The notes beneath the pieces are model-generated. The model made no database searches. It saw only the letters and a program-made list of their open reading frames with translations, and was not told where the DNA came from. A DNA stretch of 64,000 nt from Oligoflexales bacterium (GTDB taxonomy: Bacteria > Bdellovibrionota_B > Oligoflexia > Oligoflexales > RGVZ01). Below are positions 16,513-25,679 of the stretch, piece after piece; the stretch's first letter is position 1, and each line of letters begins with the position of its first letter. The stretch is from assembly GCA_947494335.1 (NCBI GenBank), contig CANLUT010000004.1, positions 248,001-312,000 of the forward strand, in the 5' to 3' direction. The translations under genes were made by a program, and so were the position numbers.

Positions 16513-18909
16513 CTAACTTGGCATTACAGTAACCGCACCAGGAAGGGCCGCCGACGATGCTGTGGCAGGGAAAAACGCGTCATGAATCCCCAAGGCAACC
16601 TCTAGCACCTGACTGATATTTTCAACCAACGTGATGGTCATCTGTGACAAAACCTCCGATGGAACATCTGCCAGATCTTTCTCATTTCGCTTCGGAATCA
16701 ATACGTGCTCCACACCAGATCGATGCGCTGCCAAAATCTTTTCTTTGATACCACCAACGGGAGTTACTTGGCCCCGCAGTGTCACTTCTCCTGTCATGGC
16801 TAGCTTCGGATTGACCCTAAATCCTGTTAGTAACGATGCCAAGGCAGTTAGCATCGTCACACCTGCACTCGGACCATCTTTTGGAATCGCCCCTGAGGGC
16901 ACATGGATATGAAGATCACGTTTATCGAAGTCCGTCACCTTAAGAAAAACGGCTAAGTTGCTTCTGACTAAGCTCAGAGCAATCTGAGCTGACTCCTTCA
17001 TCACATCACCGAGCTGTCCTGTAAGAATTAGACGCCCACTACCAGCCATCTGTGCTGCTTCAACAAATAACACATCACCGCCAACTGGCGTCCAAGCAAG
17101 ACCCGTCACGACTCCCGGGGGAACAATCCGATCAGTCTCCTCATACTCGTAGCGTTCGGATCCAAGAGCCTCACGCACCCGATCGCCTGTGATAACCAAA
17201 CTTTCGTAGGTTGCGTCTGCAATCTTTTCCGCCGCATAGCGACAAATGGCCTGAATCTGCCTTTGAAGACCCCGAACACCAGCTTCTCTGGTGTAGGACT
17301 GAATGACTTTCAGAAGAGACGAGTCAGTAAATGAGACCTGCTCTGACGCAAGACCATGCTCCCCTAACTGCTTCGGCACTAAATGGTCACGAGCAATAGC
17401 AAGCTTTTCTGCCGTTATGTAGCCTGAAAGCTCGATGATTTCCATCCGGTCCAATAATGGACCAGGAATCGAATCTAACGTGTTCGCTGTGGCAATGAAA
17501 AACACATCACTTAAGTCAAATGGAACATCGAGATAATGATCGGTGAACTCCCTATTCTGCTCGGGATCGAGAACCTCCAGCAAGGCTGCCGCCGGATCTC
17601 CTGTGTAACCGCGACCCAATTTATCTATCTCATCGAGTAGAAAAACCGGATTTTTCACACCAACACGCTTGATTGACTGAATGATACGACCTGGCATTGC
17701 ACCAATATAGGTTTTCCGGTGTCCACGAATCTCGGCATCGTCACGCACACCACCCAAAGCTGTGCGAATAAACTTTCGTCCTAGGGCTTTAGCAATGCTC
17801 TCACCCAGAGACGTTTTCCCAACCCCTGGCGGACCGACAAATAAAATGATGGAACCGCGTTTATCTTTCTTCAGCTTCATCACAGCCAGATGCTGTACAA
17901 TTCGCTTTTTGATCTTTTCTAATCCATAGTGATCGGCATTCAAGACATCCCGCGCATGCCCCAAATCCAATTGATCCTCGGTTGAGATGTTCCATGGCAT
18001 TGCCAGTAGCAAATCTAGATAATTACGAATCACATGAGTTTCTGGACTACTTGGTCCGATGGAATCAAGGCGCTTTGCCTCGTCCATAGCTACCGCACGA
18101 ACAGACTCCGGCAGATTAGCCTCATTGATCCTACGAATGTAATCTTCATCGGCTTCGCTCTTGGTCTCACCAAGCTCGTCTCGGATTGTTTTGATCTGTT
18201 CTCGAAGAATGGCTTCACGCTGATGTTTACCTATCTTCTCATTGAGCTTGTTGCGAACATCAACCTGGATTTCCAATGTCTTCTTTTGATCTGCCATTAG
18301 CTCCAATACAACCAAAGCTCGCTGCTTGGAACTATCGATTTCCAGTATTTCCTGACGCTTAGGCAGAGAAACATCCAAATTCTCAATCATGATCGGCATA
18401 AACGCGTCGAGGTCATCGACAGCTTCTAGCAAGGCTTCGAGGTGCGAGGTATCACCAGGAATGAGAGCTAATATTTCTTTGGCAAGAATTTTTGCGTTCG
18501 CCAGCAATGCCTTACCAGTCGCCGGATCACAATCATCGAGCTCCTCAGCTGCAATAAACGCAGCAGAAAGATACGCGGCATCATCAGTAAGGTCGGAGAG
18601 GGTCACGCGCTCAAGCCCTGTAACCACGAGCTGAAACCCCTTTTTGGAGTCACCCACCTTTTTATCGATTCTGGCTAAAACGCCAGTAAGGTAGGTTTCA
18701 TCCTTATGGACTTTCGAGCCATCCCCAGTCTCAACACGCTGCGCAACAATGATGACGCGGTTATCAAATAACTCAGTGGCCGCGTTTACTGCCGCCACAC
18801 TTTGGGGGCGGTTGATAACCAAAGGAACCGTACGGCCGCGAAATAACACATAATTTCTTGTAACAATGACCGGTATACGGCCTGGTTTTTCCTTCAGCTT
18901 GGCATCCAT
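16513..18909 (-). CDS. lon: ATP-dependent protease Lon
   Basis: About 798 residues in three parts: an N-terminal substrate domain, a AAA+ domain with Walker A GPPGVGKTSLG and Walker B VFLLDEIDKLG, and a C-terminal Ser-Lys protease. The nucleophile lies in PKDGPSAGVTM and the lysine in GGIKEKILAAHR. It degrades misfolded and regulatory proteins in the cytoplasm. The ATG at 18909 is chosen because AAAGGTGG lies eight bases upstream and because a sigma-32-like promoter sits about 60 bases upstream. Earlier in-frame ATG (18960) and TTG (18993) codons would fall at or before the predicted transcription start. Confidence 0.95.
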   Translation of the reverse strand: MDAKLKEKPGRIPVIVTRNYVLFRGRTVPLVINRPQSVAAVNAATELFDNRVIIVAQRVETGDGSKVHKDETYLTGVLARIDKKVGDSKKGFQLVVTGLERVTLSDLTDDAAYLSAAFIAAEELDDCDPATGKALLANAKILAKEILALIPGDTSHLEALLEAVDDLDAFMPIMIENLDVSLPKRQEILEIDSSKQRALVVLELMADQKKTLEIQVDVRNKLNEKIGKHQREAILREQIKTIRDELGETKSEADEDYIRRINEANLPESVRAVAMDEAKRLDSIGPSSPETHVIRNYLDLLLAMPWNISTEDQLDLGHARDVLNADHYGLEKIKKRIVQHLAVMKLKKDKRGSIILFVGPPGVGKTSLGESIAKALGRKFIRTALGGVRDDAEIRGHRKTYIGAMPGRIIQSIKRVGVKNPVFLLDEIDKLGRGYTGDPAAALLEVLDPEQNREFTDHYLDVPFDLSDVFFIATANTLDSIPGPLLDRMEIIELSGYITAEKLAIARDHLVPKQLGEHGLASEQVSFTDSSLLKVIQSYTREAGVRGLQRQIQAICRYAAEKIADATYESLVITGDRVREALGSERYEYEETDRIVPPGVVTGLAWTPVGGDVLFVEAAQMAGSGRLILTGQLGDVMKESAQIALSLVRSNLAVFLKVTDFDKRDLHIHVPSGAIPKDGPSAGVTMLTALASLLTGFRVNPKLAMTGEVTLRGQVTPVGGIKEKILAAHRSGVEHVLIPKRNEKDLADVPSEVLSQMTITLVENISQVLEVALGIHDAFFPATASSAALPGAVTVMPS

Positions 18910-18966
18910 GACTATATCCACCTTTCGTAGAAAAACTCTGAGCGAGTCCAATTCGCTCATAGCGCA

Positions 18967-19122: not shown

Positions 19123-20883
19123 ATGCAGATATTGGACAAAATCAAAGACTACGAAAGGCTTGGTAAGCCGTTCTTCTCCTTTGAGTATTTCCCACCAAAG
19201 ACCGAGACCGGACTCCACAACCTCTATTCGCGCCTGGACCGCATGGCCGGTCTTGAACCTTGTTTCATTGACATCACCTGGGGCGCTGGCGGCAGCACAT
19301 CTGAAACCACACTGACGTTAAGCAAAGACGCTCAAACCTATTTTGGTTTGGACGTCATGATGCATATTACCTGTGCCAATTTGAGTGAAACTCGTTTGCG
19401 GTCAGCTCTTGATCAGGCTCGTGATTGTGGCATCCGCAACATCATGGCACTGCGCGGAGATTCACCTCGTAGCGATCGCCATGCTGAGCCTTCGTTTATT
19501 GAAACCAGCATTGATTTGATCAAATGGATTCGCAAAAACTATGGTCAAACCTTCTGTATCGCAGTGGGCGGCTATCCTGAGGGGCATCCAGAGGCCAAAT
19601 CAAAAGACGATTGCGTGGCGTACCTAAAGAAAAAAGTCGACGCTGGAGCTGACTTTGTAGTCACCCAGTTGTTTTACGATGTGAGCGAGTACGACCAATT
19701 TCTGAAACGCTGTAAAAAGATCGGTATTCACTGTCCTATTATACCAGGCGTCATGCCGATCATGTCTTACGAGCGCTTTCTAAAGTTTACTGAGTTTACG
19801 GGGATCAAAGTTCCAGAGCATATTCGGCAAGCTCTAGAACCAATAAAGACCGACGACGAAGAAGTTAGGGCTTTTGGCGTCGACCTTTGCGTGAAAATGG
19901 CCCGCGAATTATTTGAGCTAGGTGCTCCGGGACTTCATTTCTACACTCTCAATCTTGAGTCGTCTGTAACTGAGGTCCTCGAGAACTTGGACCTGTTGGG
20001 AGACTGTCGAACAAGGCGCCCGATGCCATGGCGTGCGTCTACAGTTGCAAATCGCAAGTCTGAGGAGGTACGCCCAATCTTTTGGAGTAATCGACCGAAA
20101 AGCTATCTTGCGCGTACTTTGACTTGGGATGATTTCCCAAATGGTCGCTGGGGTGATAGCTTTTCCCCAACTTTTGGCTCGTTAAACGATTACTACATTT
20201 TCCGCAGAACCCAAGACACAGCTATGCGAGAAAATAGATTAAAAATTTGGGGCCAACCTAAATCTGCTAGTGATTTAACTGAGGTATTTGCCAAATTTTG
20301 CCGCGGTGAAATCAAATGGCTACCCTGGTGCGAGATGCCAATCCAAATCGAAACTGGCAGAATCGTCTCGCAACTCGTCTCAATTAATCTTAATGGCTAT
20401 CTAACCATCAATAGCCAACCACAGGTCAACGCCGCACCGAGTGATGCTCCGGATGTAGGTTGGGGCGGTGCTGGCGGCTTTGTGTTTCAAAAAGCATACG
20501 TCGAATTTTTCACGACTAAAGCCAAAATGCTTGAACTAATGGAGCGAGCCAAGAAGATTCCATCCATCACCATTCATGCCATCAATGAAAAAGGCGAAAG
20601 TTACTCCACGACAGACGATGTAAGCGTCAACGCTGTCACATGGGGCGTATTTCCTGGTCGAGAAATCATCCAACCGACCGTTGTCGACTCCAAAAGCTTT
20701 GCAATCTGGAAGGACGAGGCGTTTGACCTATGGTTGGATGAGTGGCGCTCTCTTTACTCCAAAAACAGCGAAAGCTGGAATTTTATCTCCAGCGTTCATG
20801 ACGACTACTTCTTGGTAAACGTCGTTGAAAACGATTTTGTGAATGGGGATATCTACAGGCTATTCCCCTGCATTAACTCTTAG
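19123..20883 (+). CDS. metF: Methylenetetrahydrofolate reductase, eukaryote-type with SAM-regulatory domain
   Basis: About 586 residues, twice the length of typical bacterial MetF. Residues 1-290 form the FAD-dependent TIM barrel with the active-site FEYFPPKT (Glu21) and ALRGD (Asp113). After a short linker, residues ~315-586 follow the human MTHFR regulatory domain: RPIFWSNRPKSYLART, FPNGRWGDS, TINSQP, VGWGGAGGFVFQKAY and FPGREIIQPTVVD. The residues that bind S-adenosyl groups in the human enzyme, as I recall them, have counterparts here (Glu410-Thr411, Ser431, Thr506, Thr519). The protein makes 5-methyl-THF for methionine synthesis, probably with SAM feedback. A TTG at 19108 is an alternative start. 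The 3' end overlaps convergent sufE by 11 bases. Confidence 0.93.
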   Translation: MQILDKIKDYERLGKPFFSFEYFPPKTETGLHNLYSRLDRMAGLEPCFIDITWGAGGSTSETTLTLSKDAQTYFGLDVMMHITCANLSETRLRSALDQARDCGIRNIMALRGDSPRSDRHAEPSFIETSIDLIKWIRKNYGQTFCIAVGGYPEGHPEAKSKDDCVAYLKKKVDAGADFVVTQLFYDVSEYDQFLKRCKKIGIHCPIIPGVMPIMSYERFLKFTEFTGIKVPEHIRQALEPIKTDDEEVRAFGVDLCVKMARELFELGAPGLHFYTLNLESSVTEVLENLDLLGDCRTRRPMPWRASTVANRKSEEVRPIFWSNRPKSYLARTLTWDDFPNGRWGDSFSPTFGSLNDYYIFRRTQDTAMRENRLKIWGQPKSASDLTEVFAKFCRGEIKWLPWCEMPIQIETGRIVSQLVSINLNGYLTINSQPQVNAAPSDAPDVGWGGAGGFVFQKAYVEFFTTKAKMLELMERAKKIPSITIHAINEKGESYSTTDDVSVNAVTWGVFPGREIIQPTVVDSKSFAIWKDEAFDLWLDEWRSLYSKNSESWNFISSVHDDYFLVNVVENDFVNGDIYRLFPCINS

Positions 20884-21301
20884 ACACAGCCTTAAAAGCG
20901 GTGGAGTAGAGCATGATCTGCTTGACCACGCTGGATAGTCCGTTGCGACGATTCATGGATAAATGCTCCGTGATGCCACCCTCTTTGAGAAAATCCGGGG
21001 GCAAAGACAGGTTTTCCGCTGGCGTATTTCCGCTGTAAACAGCCACGAGTACCGCCATAATGCCTTTAACAATGACGGCATCAGAATCGACGTAAAAAAA
21101 CACTCGTCCGTCTTTCATCTCAGGCACAAGCCATGCCTGCGACATGCAGCCTTCAACCAAATATTTATCCTGGCGCTGCTCGTCTTTTAAGGTTGGTAAT
21201 TCGCGGCCTTTTTCAATGATGAACTTGTAGCGATCATCACTGGAAGTGATCTCCGCGAGTTGATCTAACATATGTTTTTTCTTTGATTGAATATCACTCA
21301 T
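20873..21301 (-). CDS. sufE: SufE family Fe-S cluster assembly sulfur acceptor
   Basis: A 142-residue SufE protein with the active cysteine in VEGCMSQAWL. It takes persulfide sulfur from a SufS-type cysteine desulfurase and boosts its activity in iron-sulfur cluster assembly. The ATG at 21301 has GAGG seven bases upstream. The gene lies 18 bases downstream of the dihydroorotase gene on the same strand, so the two probably share a transcript. No other suf gene is in the window. Confidence 0.92.
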   Translation of the reverse strand: MSDIQSKKKHMLDQLAEITSSDDRYKFIIEKGRELPTLKDEQRQDKYLVEGCMSQAWLVPEMKDGRVFFYVDSDAVIVKGIMAVLVAVYSGNTPAENLSLPPDFLKEGGITEHLSMNRRNGLSSVVKQIMLYSTAFKAVSKS

Positions 21302-21319
21302 CAAAAAGCCTCACGTGGA

Positions 21320-22645
21320 TCAAGAAATGACATGAACATTTGATCCAAGAATCGTGGCTACAACCCTGCCCGGCAATCGAGCGTTCACAAAGCAGCTATT
21401 ACTCGAAAGTCCCACGAAATCAGATGCTAGAACCAAACGATCCGTAACCCGCACATCGCATATAACAGCATTGAAAGGCCGACCTTCCGCAATGTTACCG
21501 AACTGATTGGCAACCCCCAAAAATCTGGCAGGATTGGTTGCCCACGTCTGGACAAGACGCGAGGATGATAGTTTTCCCTTCTGCCAAAGCCAAATCAGGA
21601 CTCTCAATGAGGTCTCTAAACCGGTCGTCCCAAACGCGCTCGTCTTAAAGTTCACGGTCTTCACAGCTGCCTCATGAGGCGCGTGATCCGTTGCCATGAA
21701 GTCGCAATCCCCGTTTTCAAGTGCACTTTGCAAGCGCGCACGGTCCTCAGCTGAGCGAATAGGCGGATTCATTTTAAAAGATGAATTTTCCCGATCAATG
21801 TCTTCAGCGGTAAAAAACAGGTGGTGTGGGCTGACTTCACAGGAAACACTGAGCCCCGCCTGTCGAGCTTTTTTAACCAAATCGATGGTCTTAGCAGAGC
21901 TGACGTGAAGGACGTGATAACGGGCCTCTGGAACCTTATTCAAAAGATCTAAATCTCGTTTCACCATGTCAAATTCCGCAGCTTCTGGATAAGCCACTCC
22001 ACCTAAACGGCTCTGAACAGGTCCAGCTGCTAAAACGCCGCCGTGACCAGGCACCTCGGCATGCTGAAGAAGCGGGAGTCCCGTTCTTGCTGCTCCGCGA
22101 AGTACGTTTTCCATCACCTGATCGTCAGCAACACCGACACCATCATCCGTGAAAGCACTGACACCAGCTCGGGCGAGAGCCTCAAAGTCGACGCACTCAC
22201 GCCCCTTTTGTCCAATTGTCATCGCCGCTGAGAAAAGGACTTGAACTCCAGTCTCTGCAGCCGGCCCATTGATTTCACGCCGAGCCAATTCGAGCACGGA
22301 AACTCTGTCCAAAACAGGATGAGTATTAGGCATGGTCAAAAGAGCTCCGACGCCACCCGCGACCGCAGCCCAAAGGCCAGAGCTTGCGGTCTCCTTATGC
22401 GGCTGGCCGGGAACTCGAAGATGAACTTGCGCATCGACGCCCGCTGGCATCAGCACCAGCCCGTTACCATCAATTAAATAGGCATCAGGTGGATAAGACT
22501 TGGATAAATCTTCGGAAATTGACTCGACGATTCCATTTTGAACCAGAACATCAACCCGGTTTCGCTCAGAATCCGCATTCCAAAGGTCAACACCTCTGAT
22601 CAAGATCTTGGTCTCAAGCGACGATTTTATCTTGTTTTTGTGCAT
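21320..22645 (-). CDS. pyrC: Dihydroorotase-like amidohydrolase with altered metal motif
   Basis: A 441-residue class I dihydroorotase relative. Family landmarks present are MPNTHPV, SAFTDDGVGV (Asp bridging the metals), LLQHAE, HVSSAKTIDLV and ATDHAPHE. Dihydroorotase interconverts carbamoyl-aspartate and dihydroorotate in pyrimidine synthesis. The first metal site normally reads DxHxHLREPG, but here it is DAQVHLRVPG: the first His is Gln73 and the catalytic-loop Glu is Val. One metal ligand is therefore lost. The protein may be weakly active, or a structural partner of aspartate carbamoyltransferase as described for non-catalytic DHOase homologues. No pyrB is adjacent. ATG start with GGGGG upstream. 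Confidence 0.82.
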   Translation of the reverse strand: MHKNKIKSSLETKILIRGVDLWNADSERNRVDVLVQNGIVESISEDLSKSYPPDAYLIDGNGLVLMPAGVDAQVHLRVPGQPHKETASSGLWAAVAGGVGALLTMPNTHPVLDRVSVLELARREINGPAAETGVQVLFSAAMTIGQKGRECVDFEALARAGVSAFTDDGVGVADDQVMENVLRGAARTGLPLLQHAEVPGHGGVLAAGPVQSRLGGVAYPEAAEFDMVKRDLDLLNKVPEARYHVLHVSSAKTIDLVKKARQAGLSVSCEVSPHHLFFTAEDIDRENSSFKMNPPIRSAEDRARLQSALENGDCDFMATDHAPHEAAVKTVNFKTSAFGTTGLETSLRVLIWLWQKGKLSSSRLVQTWATNPARFLGVANQFGNIAEGRPFNAVICDVRVTDRLVLASDFVGLSSNSCFVNARLPGRVVATILGSNVHVIS

Positions 22646-22797: not shown

Positions 22798-23733
22798 ATG
22801 AAACGTCACCTTGAAGACATAGATGTAGCTAAAACCACGATCAACGATGCACAGCGTCTTGATCGCGTTGGCATGAGCAATATTGAATGCCCGATACTCA
22901 TCAAGTTTGATAGCCGTCCGGCGTGTATGGCCTCAGCGCGGGCCGATGCGTTCGTGAGCCTTGATCAGCCGCAAAAGGGCATCCATATGTCGCGTCTCTT
23001 CATTGCACTCACTGAAGCGCTTGAAGCGGACCCCGTTTCACCAGACCTACTTTCGAAAATTGCATCGTCTTTTCTGAAAAGTCATGACGGTATCAGCCAC
23101 TTGGCGCACGTTCGCGTCAATTTCGAGATGATGCTCAAGCGTCCTTCTCTCGTCAGTGAAAATGAAGGCTGGCGTTCATATCCCATGAGCCTTTGGGCTA
23201 CAGCGACAAAACAGGGCATACAATGCGGCATCGAGTTAACCGTACGTTACTCAAGCACCTGTCCGTGCTCAGCAGCTTTGGCGCGTCAGCTAATACAAAA
23301 CAAATTCTCTGAAAGCTTTGCGCCTGCGCAAGATCTAACCCGAGAGGCCGTGATTGAATGGCTTGGAAAAGAAGATTCCATTGCCGGCACCCCACACGGA
23401 CAGCGTAGTGAAGGCAAGGTGACCGCCACCCTTCGAGCTGTGCCAAAAGATCTTACCTTTGCGGTTTCGATGATTGAGCGTTTGGAAACAGCACTAAAAA
23501 CAGCTGTGCAGTCTACTGTTAAGCGCGAAGATGAGCAGGAGTTTGCTCGTCTCAACGCTCAGAATTTAATGTTTGCAGAAGATGCTGTTCGGAGAATGAG
23601 TCACGCCCTTAGTCGCGACCCCAACTTATCTGGGACATTATGCGAGGTGTCGCACCTCGAAAGCCTGCATCCCCACGATGCTGTTGCCAAGGTAGCAACA
23701 GGGGATCTTGCCAAAACATTCCAACAATTTTGA
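22798..23733 (+). CDS. folE2: GTP cyclohydrolase FolE2 (type IB)
   Basis: A 311-residue GCYH-IB enzyme with RLDRVGMSNIECPI near the N-terminus, the metal-binding Cys in SSTCPCSAAL and the GTPHGQRSEG motif. It makes dihydroneopterin triphosphate from GTP, the first step of folate synthesis, which ties in with the nearby MTHFR. FolE2 works with metals other than zinc and in many bacteria is switched on by zinc shortage; no Zur-type site was recognised here. ATG start with a GGAAGCG site. Confidence 0.92.
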   Translation: MKRHLEDIDVAKTTINDAQRLDRVGMSNIECPILIKFDSRPACMASARADAFVSLDQPQKGIHMSRLFIALTEALEADPVSPDLLSKIASSFLKSHDGISHLAHVRVNFEMMLKRPSLVSENEGWRSYPMSLWATATKQGIQCGIELTVRYSSTCPCSAALARQLIQNKFSESFAPAQDLTREAVIEWLGKEDSIAGTPHGQRSEGKVTATLRAVPKDLTFAVSMIERLETALKTAVQSTVKREDEQEFARLNAQNLMFAEDAVRRMSHALSRDPNLSGTLCEVSHLESLHPHDAVAKVATGDLAKTFQQF

Positions 23734-23744
23734 ATACTAGACTC

Positions 23745-25679
23745 TTATAATCCGAACTTCTTCAAGGCGTCTTTCGCCTTGTTTTTGACATCATCCTGCA
23801 ATTTTTTCGAGTCAGCTGATCCCTTCTCTCTGTATGCCTTTTCAAGCTCTGCTTGAAGGTTTTTGAACTCGGTGTCTTTTCCTTGCAGCAAACTATTGAA
23901 GGCACTTTGAACTTTCGTGTACTCGGCCACGAGTTTTCCACGCTCATCTTTGATACGATCATCAACAAATGATTTGAGCTTTGCCTTGGCCTGATCAATC
24001 TTTTGCTTCAAGTGACGTTCGAGACCAGACGCAAGCTCTGTTCCAAGATTTGAATCCAGACCAATCTTTGGATTGGTCAGACCACCTTCAAGGGTAACCT
24101 CCATTTCAAGGGCCTTTATCCGAGATGTCGCACTCGTCAAAGCCTCCTTCAAAATTGGTGACTTTGCATCAGTCTTAAAGACAGGGCTGACAATCATTTC
24201 TTTAATCTTGGCCTTAAGCTCTGAACCGTCAAACTCAGCGTCAACCATTAGACTCGCAGGAGCTGCTGCAACACCAAACGTGATATCTGAGCTCGATGCA
24301 AACATCTGCTCAGGGAACGGATGAGCACCAACCGATAAATCGACAGCCGTTGAACTTCTGTCGCCCTTGAAATCCATGACAATCTGTAGGTCCGCCTTCT
24401 TGATCTCTTGCTTTGGCGCATCACCAGATAGACGAACCTCGGTGGGTTTATTGATGAGCGATGCATCAGAAGATACGTTAAGAATCTTCCCTGCAAAATC
24501 GCCGGAGAAACCCTCCGGGGTTGATTTGCTGGATATCTCAGCCTTCTTTAGCCAGAACAGTGGATAACCTACGGTCACTGGAAACTTGTAGGTTCTGCCA
24601 GTTCCCCGAGGATGCGGAACAAACTCCGGCTCATCTTTCTCCTTTTTGTCGGGCATGTAAGCTTTCGCTTTATCGAGGAACCCCGTCAGCTTAACGAGTT
24701 TGTCGCCCATAACTTTATTGAGTAATGCCTTTGAGATGCTGGTCTTATCGATGCTGGGCAACTGAAATCGATTTTGAAGTGCTTCCATATCCTTGCGCGC
24801 CGCATCATCGATCTCTTTCAAACTACTATTAAATCCCGAAACATCTTGCTGAATATCTTTCTGGCTCTTTTGGTAAGCCGCCACAATATCTTGGACCTTA
24901 TTAATGTCCTTCTTTAATCCCTCTAATTGATTTTTTGCTTCCACTGGATTCGACGTATTGATCTTGGTCGATTTTACCTTCTCCACAACCGCCTTAACTT
25001 CGTCGGCCTTTGGCAAGGAATCGATTCGTTTAGTCCACTCGTCTTTCTTGGACGTTAACACCGTCTGAAGTTCTTTGATCTTAGCTTCGCTTTGCAGCTG
25101 ATCACGGATTTGTTTTAACTGCTCCGTCGCATCAGTCCCGGATAGTATATTGGCTATATCTCCGAATACGTTATTCTTGAGTTGAGCTTCCGCCTCAGCT
25201 TTCAGCTCATTGCCAATTTTTTCGGTCAGCCCTGGACCTGATGTTTTGCTTGGCGGCGCTGGGGGATAAACCTCTCCTGGGGTTTTTCTCGGTGAATACA
25301 GCGCAATGTCTTTAATTGACGACTCATCGATAACAACTTTAGCTCTTAATAAAGCGTCCCAAAGAAGTGCAAAGCGTATTTGCCCAATCGAAACCACATT
25401 CTGTTGTGGCTTGCTCTTATCTGTTACTTCGATTTTGCCAATTGTGAGAGACGGATCTGTGAACTTGATATTCAAAGAACCGACATCCACTTGCGCGCCG
25501 TAAATAGAAGACGCTGCAAGCTCCAAGCCTCGACGTACATGACCATCCAACATGGTCACCGCATAAAACCAAACCAGCGCGATAATGGTGGCGATGGGTA
25601 TGATGGCTTCAATTCTAAGAGGCCCTTTTGACTTCGGGGATTTGCTTTTTTTAACTTGAGCTGCTTTTTGGTCTGTCAT
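23745..25679 (-). CDS. TIGR03545 family membrane-anchored coiled-coil protein
   Basis: A 644-residue protein with one N-terminal membrane segment (about 24-44, IEAIIPIATIIALVWFYAVT). A long, charged, largely helical periplasmic part follows, with heptad-rich segments around 190-320 and 550-640, and beta-rich AsmA-like sections between. It is recognised as the family paired genomically with TIGR03546, which lies immediately upstream here (42 bases). No activity is known for either. The AsmA-like anchoring and large periplasmic body might suggest envelope or lipid transport work; that is inference. Confidence 0.8.
   Translation of the reverse strand: MTDQKAAQVKKSKSPKSKGPLRIEAIIPIATIIALVWFYAVTMLDGHVRRGLELAASSIYGAQVDVGSLNIKFTDPSLTIGKIEVTDKSKPQQNVVSIGQIRFALLWDALLRAKVVIDESSIKDIALYSPRKTPGEVYPPAPPSKTSGPGLTEKIGNELKAEAEAQLKNNVFGDIANILSGTDATEQLKQIRDQLQSEAKIKELQTVLTSKKDEWTKRIDSLPKADEVKAVVEKVKSTKINTSNPVEAKNQLEGLKKDINKVQDIVAAYQKSQKDIQQDVSGFNSSLKEIDDAARKDMEALQNRFQLPSIDKTSISKALLNKVMGDKLVKLTGFLDKAKAYMPDKKEKDEPEFVPHPRGTGRTYKFPVTVGYPLFWLKKAEISSKSTPEGFSGDFAGKILNVSSDASLINKPTEVRLSGDAPKQEIKKADLQIVMDFKGDRSSTAVDLSVGAHPFPEQMFASSSDITFGVAAAPASLMVDAEFDGSELKAKIKEMIVSPVFKTDAKSPILKEALTSATSRIKALEMEVTLEGGLTNPKIGLDSNLGTELASGLERHLKQKIDQAKAKLKSFVDDRIKDERGKLVAEYTKVQSAFNSLLQGKDTEFKNLQAELEKAYREKGSADSKKLQDDVKNKAKDALKKFGL

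Follow-up and report, generated by a model that had tools for sequence, protein, structure and literature searches.

The locus examined here raises the question of whether a bacterium can carry an MTHFR equipped with the SAM-binding regulatory domain of the eukaryotic enzymes. No regulatory-domain sequence outside eukaryotic MTHFRs was found in 2018 (PMC5995969), and in 2024 the two-domain form was described as 'typical only for eukaryotes' (PMC11701544). Structural papers and a 2026 review likewise present the domain, with its unique SAM-binding fold, as confined to eukaryotes, and pose as a question why it evolved. Our literature search, which used partly narrow term sets and had preprints and subscription papers outside its scope, found no report of a bacterial two-domain MTHFR. 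Pfam's own MTHFR_C matches presumably include some bacterial cases.

The gene lies in a 64,000-nucleotide stretch (the window) of contig CANLUT010000004.1 from an Oligoflexales bacterium. It runs on the forward strand at 19123..20883, with an ATG at 19123 and a stop codon ending at 20883, and encodes 586 amino acids. The start is backed by alignment (MQILDKI against MKIIDKI in 20 or more relatives), and the protein begins at the barrel, without the N-terminal Ser-rich phosphorylation region of chordate MTHFR. Residues 7-289 (19141..19989, forward) form the catalytic TIM barrel (Pfam PF02219, MTHFR, E 1.3e-106), while residues 298-574 (20014..20844, forward) match PF21895, MTHFR_C, named 'SAM-binding regulatory domain' (E 7.4e-96; score 321 bits, cut-off 27), so that both domains stand on one chain and score far above the Pfam cut-off. 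The inter-domain linker (20011..20241, forward; approximately residues 297-373) was mapped to the human linker segments LS1-LS3 (PMC11018872), and its landmarks are PW (302-303), the sensor position S322, FPNGRW (338-343) and the plug YYIF (357-360). The original prediction, a bacterial MTHFR with a complete eukaryote-type SAM-regulatory domain, is borne out by the open reading frame, by both Pfam domains and by a full-length human match, and the three human regulatory-domain motifs that it named are all found in the protein.

In NCBIfam the window protein passes the cut-off for the eukaryotic equivalog TIGR00677 and stays under the one for the bacterial MetF equivalog TIGR00676 (280.9 vs 293.7 bits); TIGR00677 is also matched by each of the 27 bacterial two-domain proteins that were examined. 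Among the solved structures searched, it aligns end to end with human MTHFR (6fcx, E 7e-173) and matches Chaetomium thermophilum MTHFR with E 6e-165 (8uy2); every bacterial MetF structure ranks behind these two. Identity to the human enzyme is higher in the regulatory part (51%) than in the catalytic part (42%). The FAD/folate residues of the barrel are kept, E21, D50, T52, H81, Q182 and Y274 corresponding to human E63, D92, T94, H127, Q228 and Y321; the human loop DNDA (289-292) reads TDDE, and K270, L271 and S272 of human helix alpha-8, linked to NADPH preference, are replaced by E, F and T.

Taken over its whole length, human MTHFR (PDB 6fcx, 8qa4-8qa6) shares with the window protein both domains, both SAM sites, FPNGRW and the plug YY[IL]F, and differs from it in having the phosphorylation region and an alanine sensor. 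The Chaetomium enzyme (PDB 8uy1, 8uy2) has the same architecture and nearly identical site residues at about 44% identity (structural alignment), but its plug holds one tyrosine (Y361) where the window protein has two. Bacterial MetF (E. coli 1zp3, T. thermophilus 1v93), on the other hand, shares the barrel and the active-site residues, but with about 290 amino acids it lacks the regulatory domain and, according to the literature, oligomerises via the barrel. DUF6919 (PF21897) is a bacterial relative of the regulatory domain, matched by the window domain at E 6e-8 (Pfam), but it stands alone, unfused to MTHFR (PMC11701544). The window protein is of a known two-domain kind, found in hosts said to be without it.

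Conservation of the SAM/SAH contacts was assessed by transferring the human contact positions (PMC5995969, PMC11018872, PMC11183114) by alignment. Site 1 is identical throughout, human R345, P348, W349, E463, T464, T481, S484, Q485, T560 and T573 corresponding to R299, P302, W303, E410, T411, T428, S431, Q432, T506 and T519 of the window protein. The same holds for the cryptic SAM site 2 (human F384, N386, R388, W389 and W583; window F338, N340, R342, W343 and W529) and for the bridging Q509 (window Q456). With the sensor counted, 16 of the 17 site-1/site-2 residues are the same as in human (hypergeometric P = 1.4e-4, given the 51% identity of the regulatory part), the sole changed position being the sensor, where human Ala368 is Ser322. 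The original claim that the human SAM/SAH contacts are retained, checked against the published structures, thus stands for these 16 and fails at Ala368.

Across all 27 bacterial sequences, E463, S484, Q485, Q509, N386, R388, W389, W583, P348, W349, T560 and T573 are invariant. The sensor position carries Ala in 8 of 27 bacterial relatives, among them most of the Myxococcota-like and Thermoanaerobaculia ones, and Arg in Chaetomium; in the human enzyme A368L binds SAM with a lower response and A368G is normal, and the cited MTHFR papers hold no report on a Ser variant. The auto-inhibitory aromatic plug, human Y403-Y404, corresponds to Y357-Y358, with the flavin-stacking Tyr404 present. Human variants at E463, T573, Q485, F384, N386, R388, W389 and W583, as well as Y404A, abolish SAM inhibition (PMC11018872), which indicates that the residues kept in the window protein are the functionally important ones.

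An AlphaFold2 monomer model was built from 27 sequences, the window protein's own and related ones. Its mean pLDDT is 76, and the linker stretches 295-322 and 332-364 fall below 50 and are thus of low confidence. All of the top twelve Foldseek matches to this model are eukaryotic two-domain MTHFRs. TM values are higher for open states (6fcx_A 0.74, 8qa5 0.70, 8uy1 about 0.65) than for SAM-inhibited states (8qa6 0.46, 8uy2 0.48), the model being closest to the dis-inhibited state. The model supports a predicted two-domain MTHFR fold only, and carries no information on the SAM response.

Following these comparisons, we put at roughly 0.78 the probability that the window gene encodes a bacterial MTHFR working like the eukaryotic two-domain enzyme with SAM feedback, and derived from an old shared family. 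By analogy with the switch of the human and fungal enzymes (PMC5995969, PMC11018872, PMC11183114), the FAD barrel would reduce CH2-THF to CH3-THF for MetH, and the C-terminal domain, which by likeness to eukaryotes probably joins the dimer, would sense the SAM:SAH ratio, SAH or no ligand leaving the active site open. Two SAM molecules would bind, at site 1 around E410/T428/S431/T506/T519 and at site 2 around F338/N340/R342/W343/W529; the dual occupancy would rearrange the linker and let the YYIF loop (Y357/Y358) plug the folate/NAD(P)H site against FAD, placing methyl supply under end-product feedback. From the conserved residues we strongly infer that SAM would bind and inhibit the window enzyme, and the SAM feedback foreseen in the original prediction is well supported at the level of sequence.

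The distribution of the two-domain form among bacteria was assessed at two levels. A scan of 84,980 species, each represented by a single named genome, returned 43 loci, a lower bound since the scan relied on exact short patterns. These loci fall in Oligoflexales, Marinimicrobia (Fidelibacterota), Acidobacteriota (mainly Thermoanaerobaculia/Holophagales), a few Myxococcales/Deltaproteobacteria labels, one planctomycete and one Verrucomicrobiaceae. Profile counts gave 7 of 58 genomes in the window's phylum (four genera of four families), 16/396 in Acidobacteriota, 13/245 in Marinimicrobia, 3/5 in a small Myxococcota-like phylum and 1/392 in Planctomycetota; intact relatives are patchily spread over at least these five phyla, and some relatives within the window's own family are without the gene. 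Common occurrence across bacteria with vertical descent would have made the architecture unremarkable; the form is instead rare and patchy. The window genome has a single MTHFR gene, the two-domain one, as do 17 of 18 bacterial two-domain genomes checked, the exception being a Thermoanaerobaculia genome with an extra weak, distant PF02219 match. No two-domain relative was confirmed in the viral contigs searched, and none was found in the plasmids searched at protein level.

The neighbouring genes are bacterial. Upstream and divergent lies a Lon protease (16516..18924, reverse; Pfam Lon_C, AAA, LON_substr_bdg); downstream are a convergent SufE (20873..21304, reverse; Pfam SufE, E 7e-39), an amidohydrolase that is probably the dihydroorotase PyrC, a name inferred from its Amidohydro_1 match (21320..22645, reverse), and a FolE2 GTP cyclohydrolase of folate synthesis (22798..23733, forward; Pfam GCHY-1, E 2e-65). 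Two genus-mates keep the Lon-MTHFR-SufE-PyrC-FolE2 order as far as their contigs extend, and in genome G010, from another family, a SufE-like gene and FolE2 come after the MTHFR gene. Of the phylum's 7 carriers, 5 have FolE2 and the MTHFR gene on one contig, and this type of FolE2 occurs in 7/7 carriers vs 7/51 other genomes of the phylum, a co-occurrence that shared ancestry can partly explain. In most of those other 51 genomes the FolE2-like match is either missing or much more distant. Between 12000 and 28000 no Rfam match reached the gathering threshold, and therefore no known SAM riboswitch lies near the MTHFR gene. Beyond FolE2, positions 23748-25679 (reverse) encode a 644-aa protein with a possible transmembrane helix at its start followed by long, apparently helical stretches, and with no Pfam match at E 1e-5.

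The phylogeny of full-length MTHFRs places the window protein with bacteria only, in a group that unites Oligoflexales, Marinimicrobia, two Acidobacteria and the planctomycete (support 100/94) and that persists at 97/93 after removal of the two longest branches. Eukaryotes were represented by human, Chaetomium, a yeast catalytic domain and an intron-bearing pond contig, three of them full-length. Oligoflexales as one clade is rejected (AU p 0.008), the G010 sequence grouping with Marinimicrobia (99/97). Given the FolE2 linkage common to G010 and the window's family, this is most simply read as a transfer into Marinimicrobia from an Oligoflexales-like donor, and lateral transfer probably had a part in the spread of the two-domain form among bacteria. 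The catalytic-domain tree, rooted on single-domain and fusion MTHFRs, weakly unites the bacterial two-domain and eukaryotic sequences (91/55) and leaves the branching order within the group unresolved. The AU test does not reject the eukaryotes as one clade (p 0.26-0.41), nor does it reject the bacterial two-domain proteins as one clade (p 0.33); in the regulatory-domain tree the eukaryotes all lie on one side (81/75).

Several alternatives have to be weighed against the reading of a functional, regulated bacterial enzyme. The domain might be kept for dimerisation or stability with its SAM response lost, as the serine at the sensor, the differing plug residue among bacteria and the literature on the eukaryotic dimer interface, which the regulatory domain forms, could suggest; however, both SAM pockets are invariant or nearly so over 27 deeply diverged bacterial sequences, a conservation that dimerisation alone would not call for, which makes such a loss unlikely. 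An assembly chimera or eukaryotic contamination deserves thought because the relatives found by name all come from uncultured, metagenome-assembled genomes, and because one match is a truly eukaryotic contig. This match (L080, also L150; Verrucomicrobiaceae MAG JAIYDP010000498.1, about 17.5-22.5 kb of G073:C373, a species-representative genome) is interrupted in its coding sequence by nine introns (31-86 bases, mostly GT-AG) and splices to a clean 575-aa two-domain MTHFR; we rejected it as bacterial evidence on account of the introns, and it serves as a control for the appearance of contamination. The window gene and all other full-length matches, in contrast, are uninterrupted single frames without introns, a few of them cut by contig ends. 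Moreover, the window contig spans 319 kb of an 8-contig, 97% complete genome with bacterial genes as neighbours, and the gene is seen in four assemblies of the genus, so that contamination is hardly credible. A recent gain of the gene by the window's own lineage from a eukaryote would fit the human enzyme being the best solved-structure match and the gene missing in relatives of the same family, but it appears very improbable: outside Oligoflexales the nearest sequences come from bacteria, and the clade that holds them is bacteria-only with bootstrap support of 97-100, the GC content of the gene (0.473) equals that of the window (0.474) with GC3 close to its neighbours', and the gene order is common to the genus and partly to another family.

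The original prediction had offered a eukaryote transfer or an ancestral bacterial form as the origin. The bacteria-only clade disfavours a recent or private transfer, and an old two-domain form circulating among bacteria fits the data better, with neither a single eukaryotic nor a single bacterial clade rejected. Within this frame, an invention in bacteria, passed to the ancestor of eukaryotes with the living carriers as remnants of the source pool, comes only just short of an even chance, and it is compatible with the old shared family. It would account for the two deep groups of bacterial two-domain sequences, from which the eukaryotes are not clearly split, for the weak grouping of human with the Myxococcota-like/Thermoanaerobaculia group (90/68, 87/84), mostly with Ala at the sensor as in human, and for the stand-alone DUF6919 relatives in bacteria. 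Against it stand the sampling of three full-length eukaryotic sequences, the short and unsupported key branches, the one-sided position of eukaryotes in the regulatory-domain tree and the single bacterial clade that the AU test does not reject. An early eukaryote may instead have given the gene to a bacterium, once or twice, with later spread in aquatic and sponge-associated bacteria; the rarity and patchiness by phylum counted above, the reported generality of the two-domain form in eukaryotes and the lateral spread backed by the rejected Oligoflexales clade agree with this, but no bacterial clade nests inside eukaryotes with support and the bacterial groups diverge at roughly the depth of the bacteria-eukaryote split, leaving it possible but rather doubtful. 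That the feedback of SAM on MTHFR, and with it the dual-SAM 'block-and-lock' switch, is itself a bacterial invention inherited by eukaryotes can be proposed tentatively, at somewhat below even odds; if the bacterial origin were true, the accepted eukaryote-specific account of the regulatory domain would be wrong in both origin and range.

Under the preferred reading, the window protein would belong to an old two-domain MTHFR family common to several bacterial phyla and eukaryotes. In the window's phylum, the MTHFR-bearing genomes that are not carriers almost all have, mostly besides MetH, a fusion of about 620-680 aa with an N-terminal homocysteine S-methyltransferase and a distant C-terminal MTHFR (PRK08645-like, NF006396), the usual form there; examples without a two-domain MTHFR are L015, L016, L024 and L027. 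As in the window protein, the MTHFR domain of the fusion is expected to provide CH3-THF for methionine synthesis, but its domain partner is another one, its identity is about 25-29%, and it has no SAM-binding regulatory domain. All seven carriers have MetH and no fusion, the two forms being mutually exclusive in the phylum; each carrier shows exactly one S-methyltransferase match, in a frame of 1230-1255 aa for six of them and of 361 aa for the other. The window genome encodes a full MetH with its activation domain (NF007024, 2013 bits), and in carrier L074 MetH adjoins the two-domain gene convergently. Carriers thus appear to route methyl groups via a regulated MTHFR to MetH, with both the fusion and MetH present in sister genomes, and the two-domain enzyme would stand in for the fusion in its lineage. 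G001, of the same genus and 90% complete, has MetH and is without two-domain MTHFR, fusion and close FolE2, reflecting either an assembly gap or a lineage with the step lost.

A SAM feedback brake on MTHFR is therefore probably not confined to eukaryotes. With their two intact SAM sites, the bacterial versions extend the range of the domain and open the origin of the switch to phylogenetic tests; as short proteins without the phosphorylation region they are useful for study. They also lead to the prediction that in some bacteria the flux from folate to methionine is throttled through allostery of the protein, and not by gene control (for example SAM riboswitches, MetJ) alone. At plug position 404 the window genus has Tyr and most of the other bacterial two-domain proteins have His; this natural series lends itself to probing the block-and-lock mechanism.
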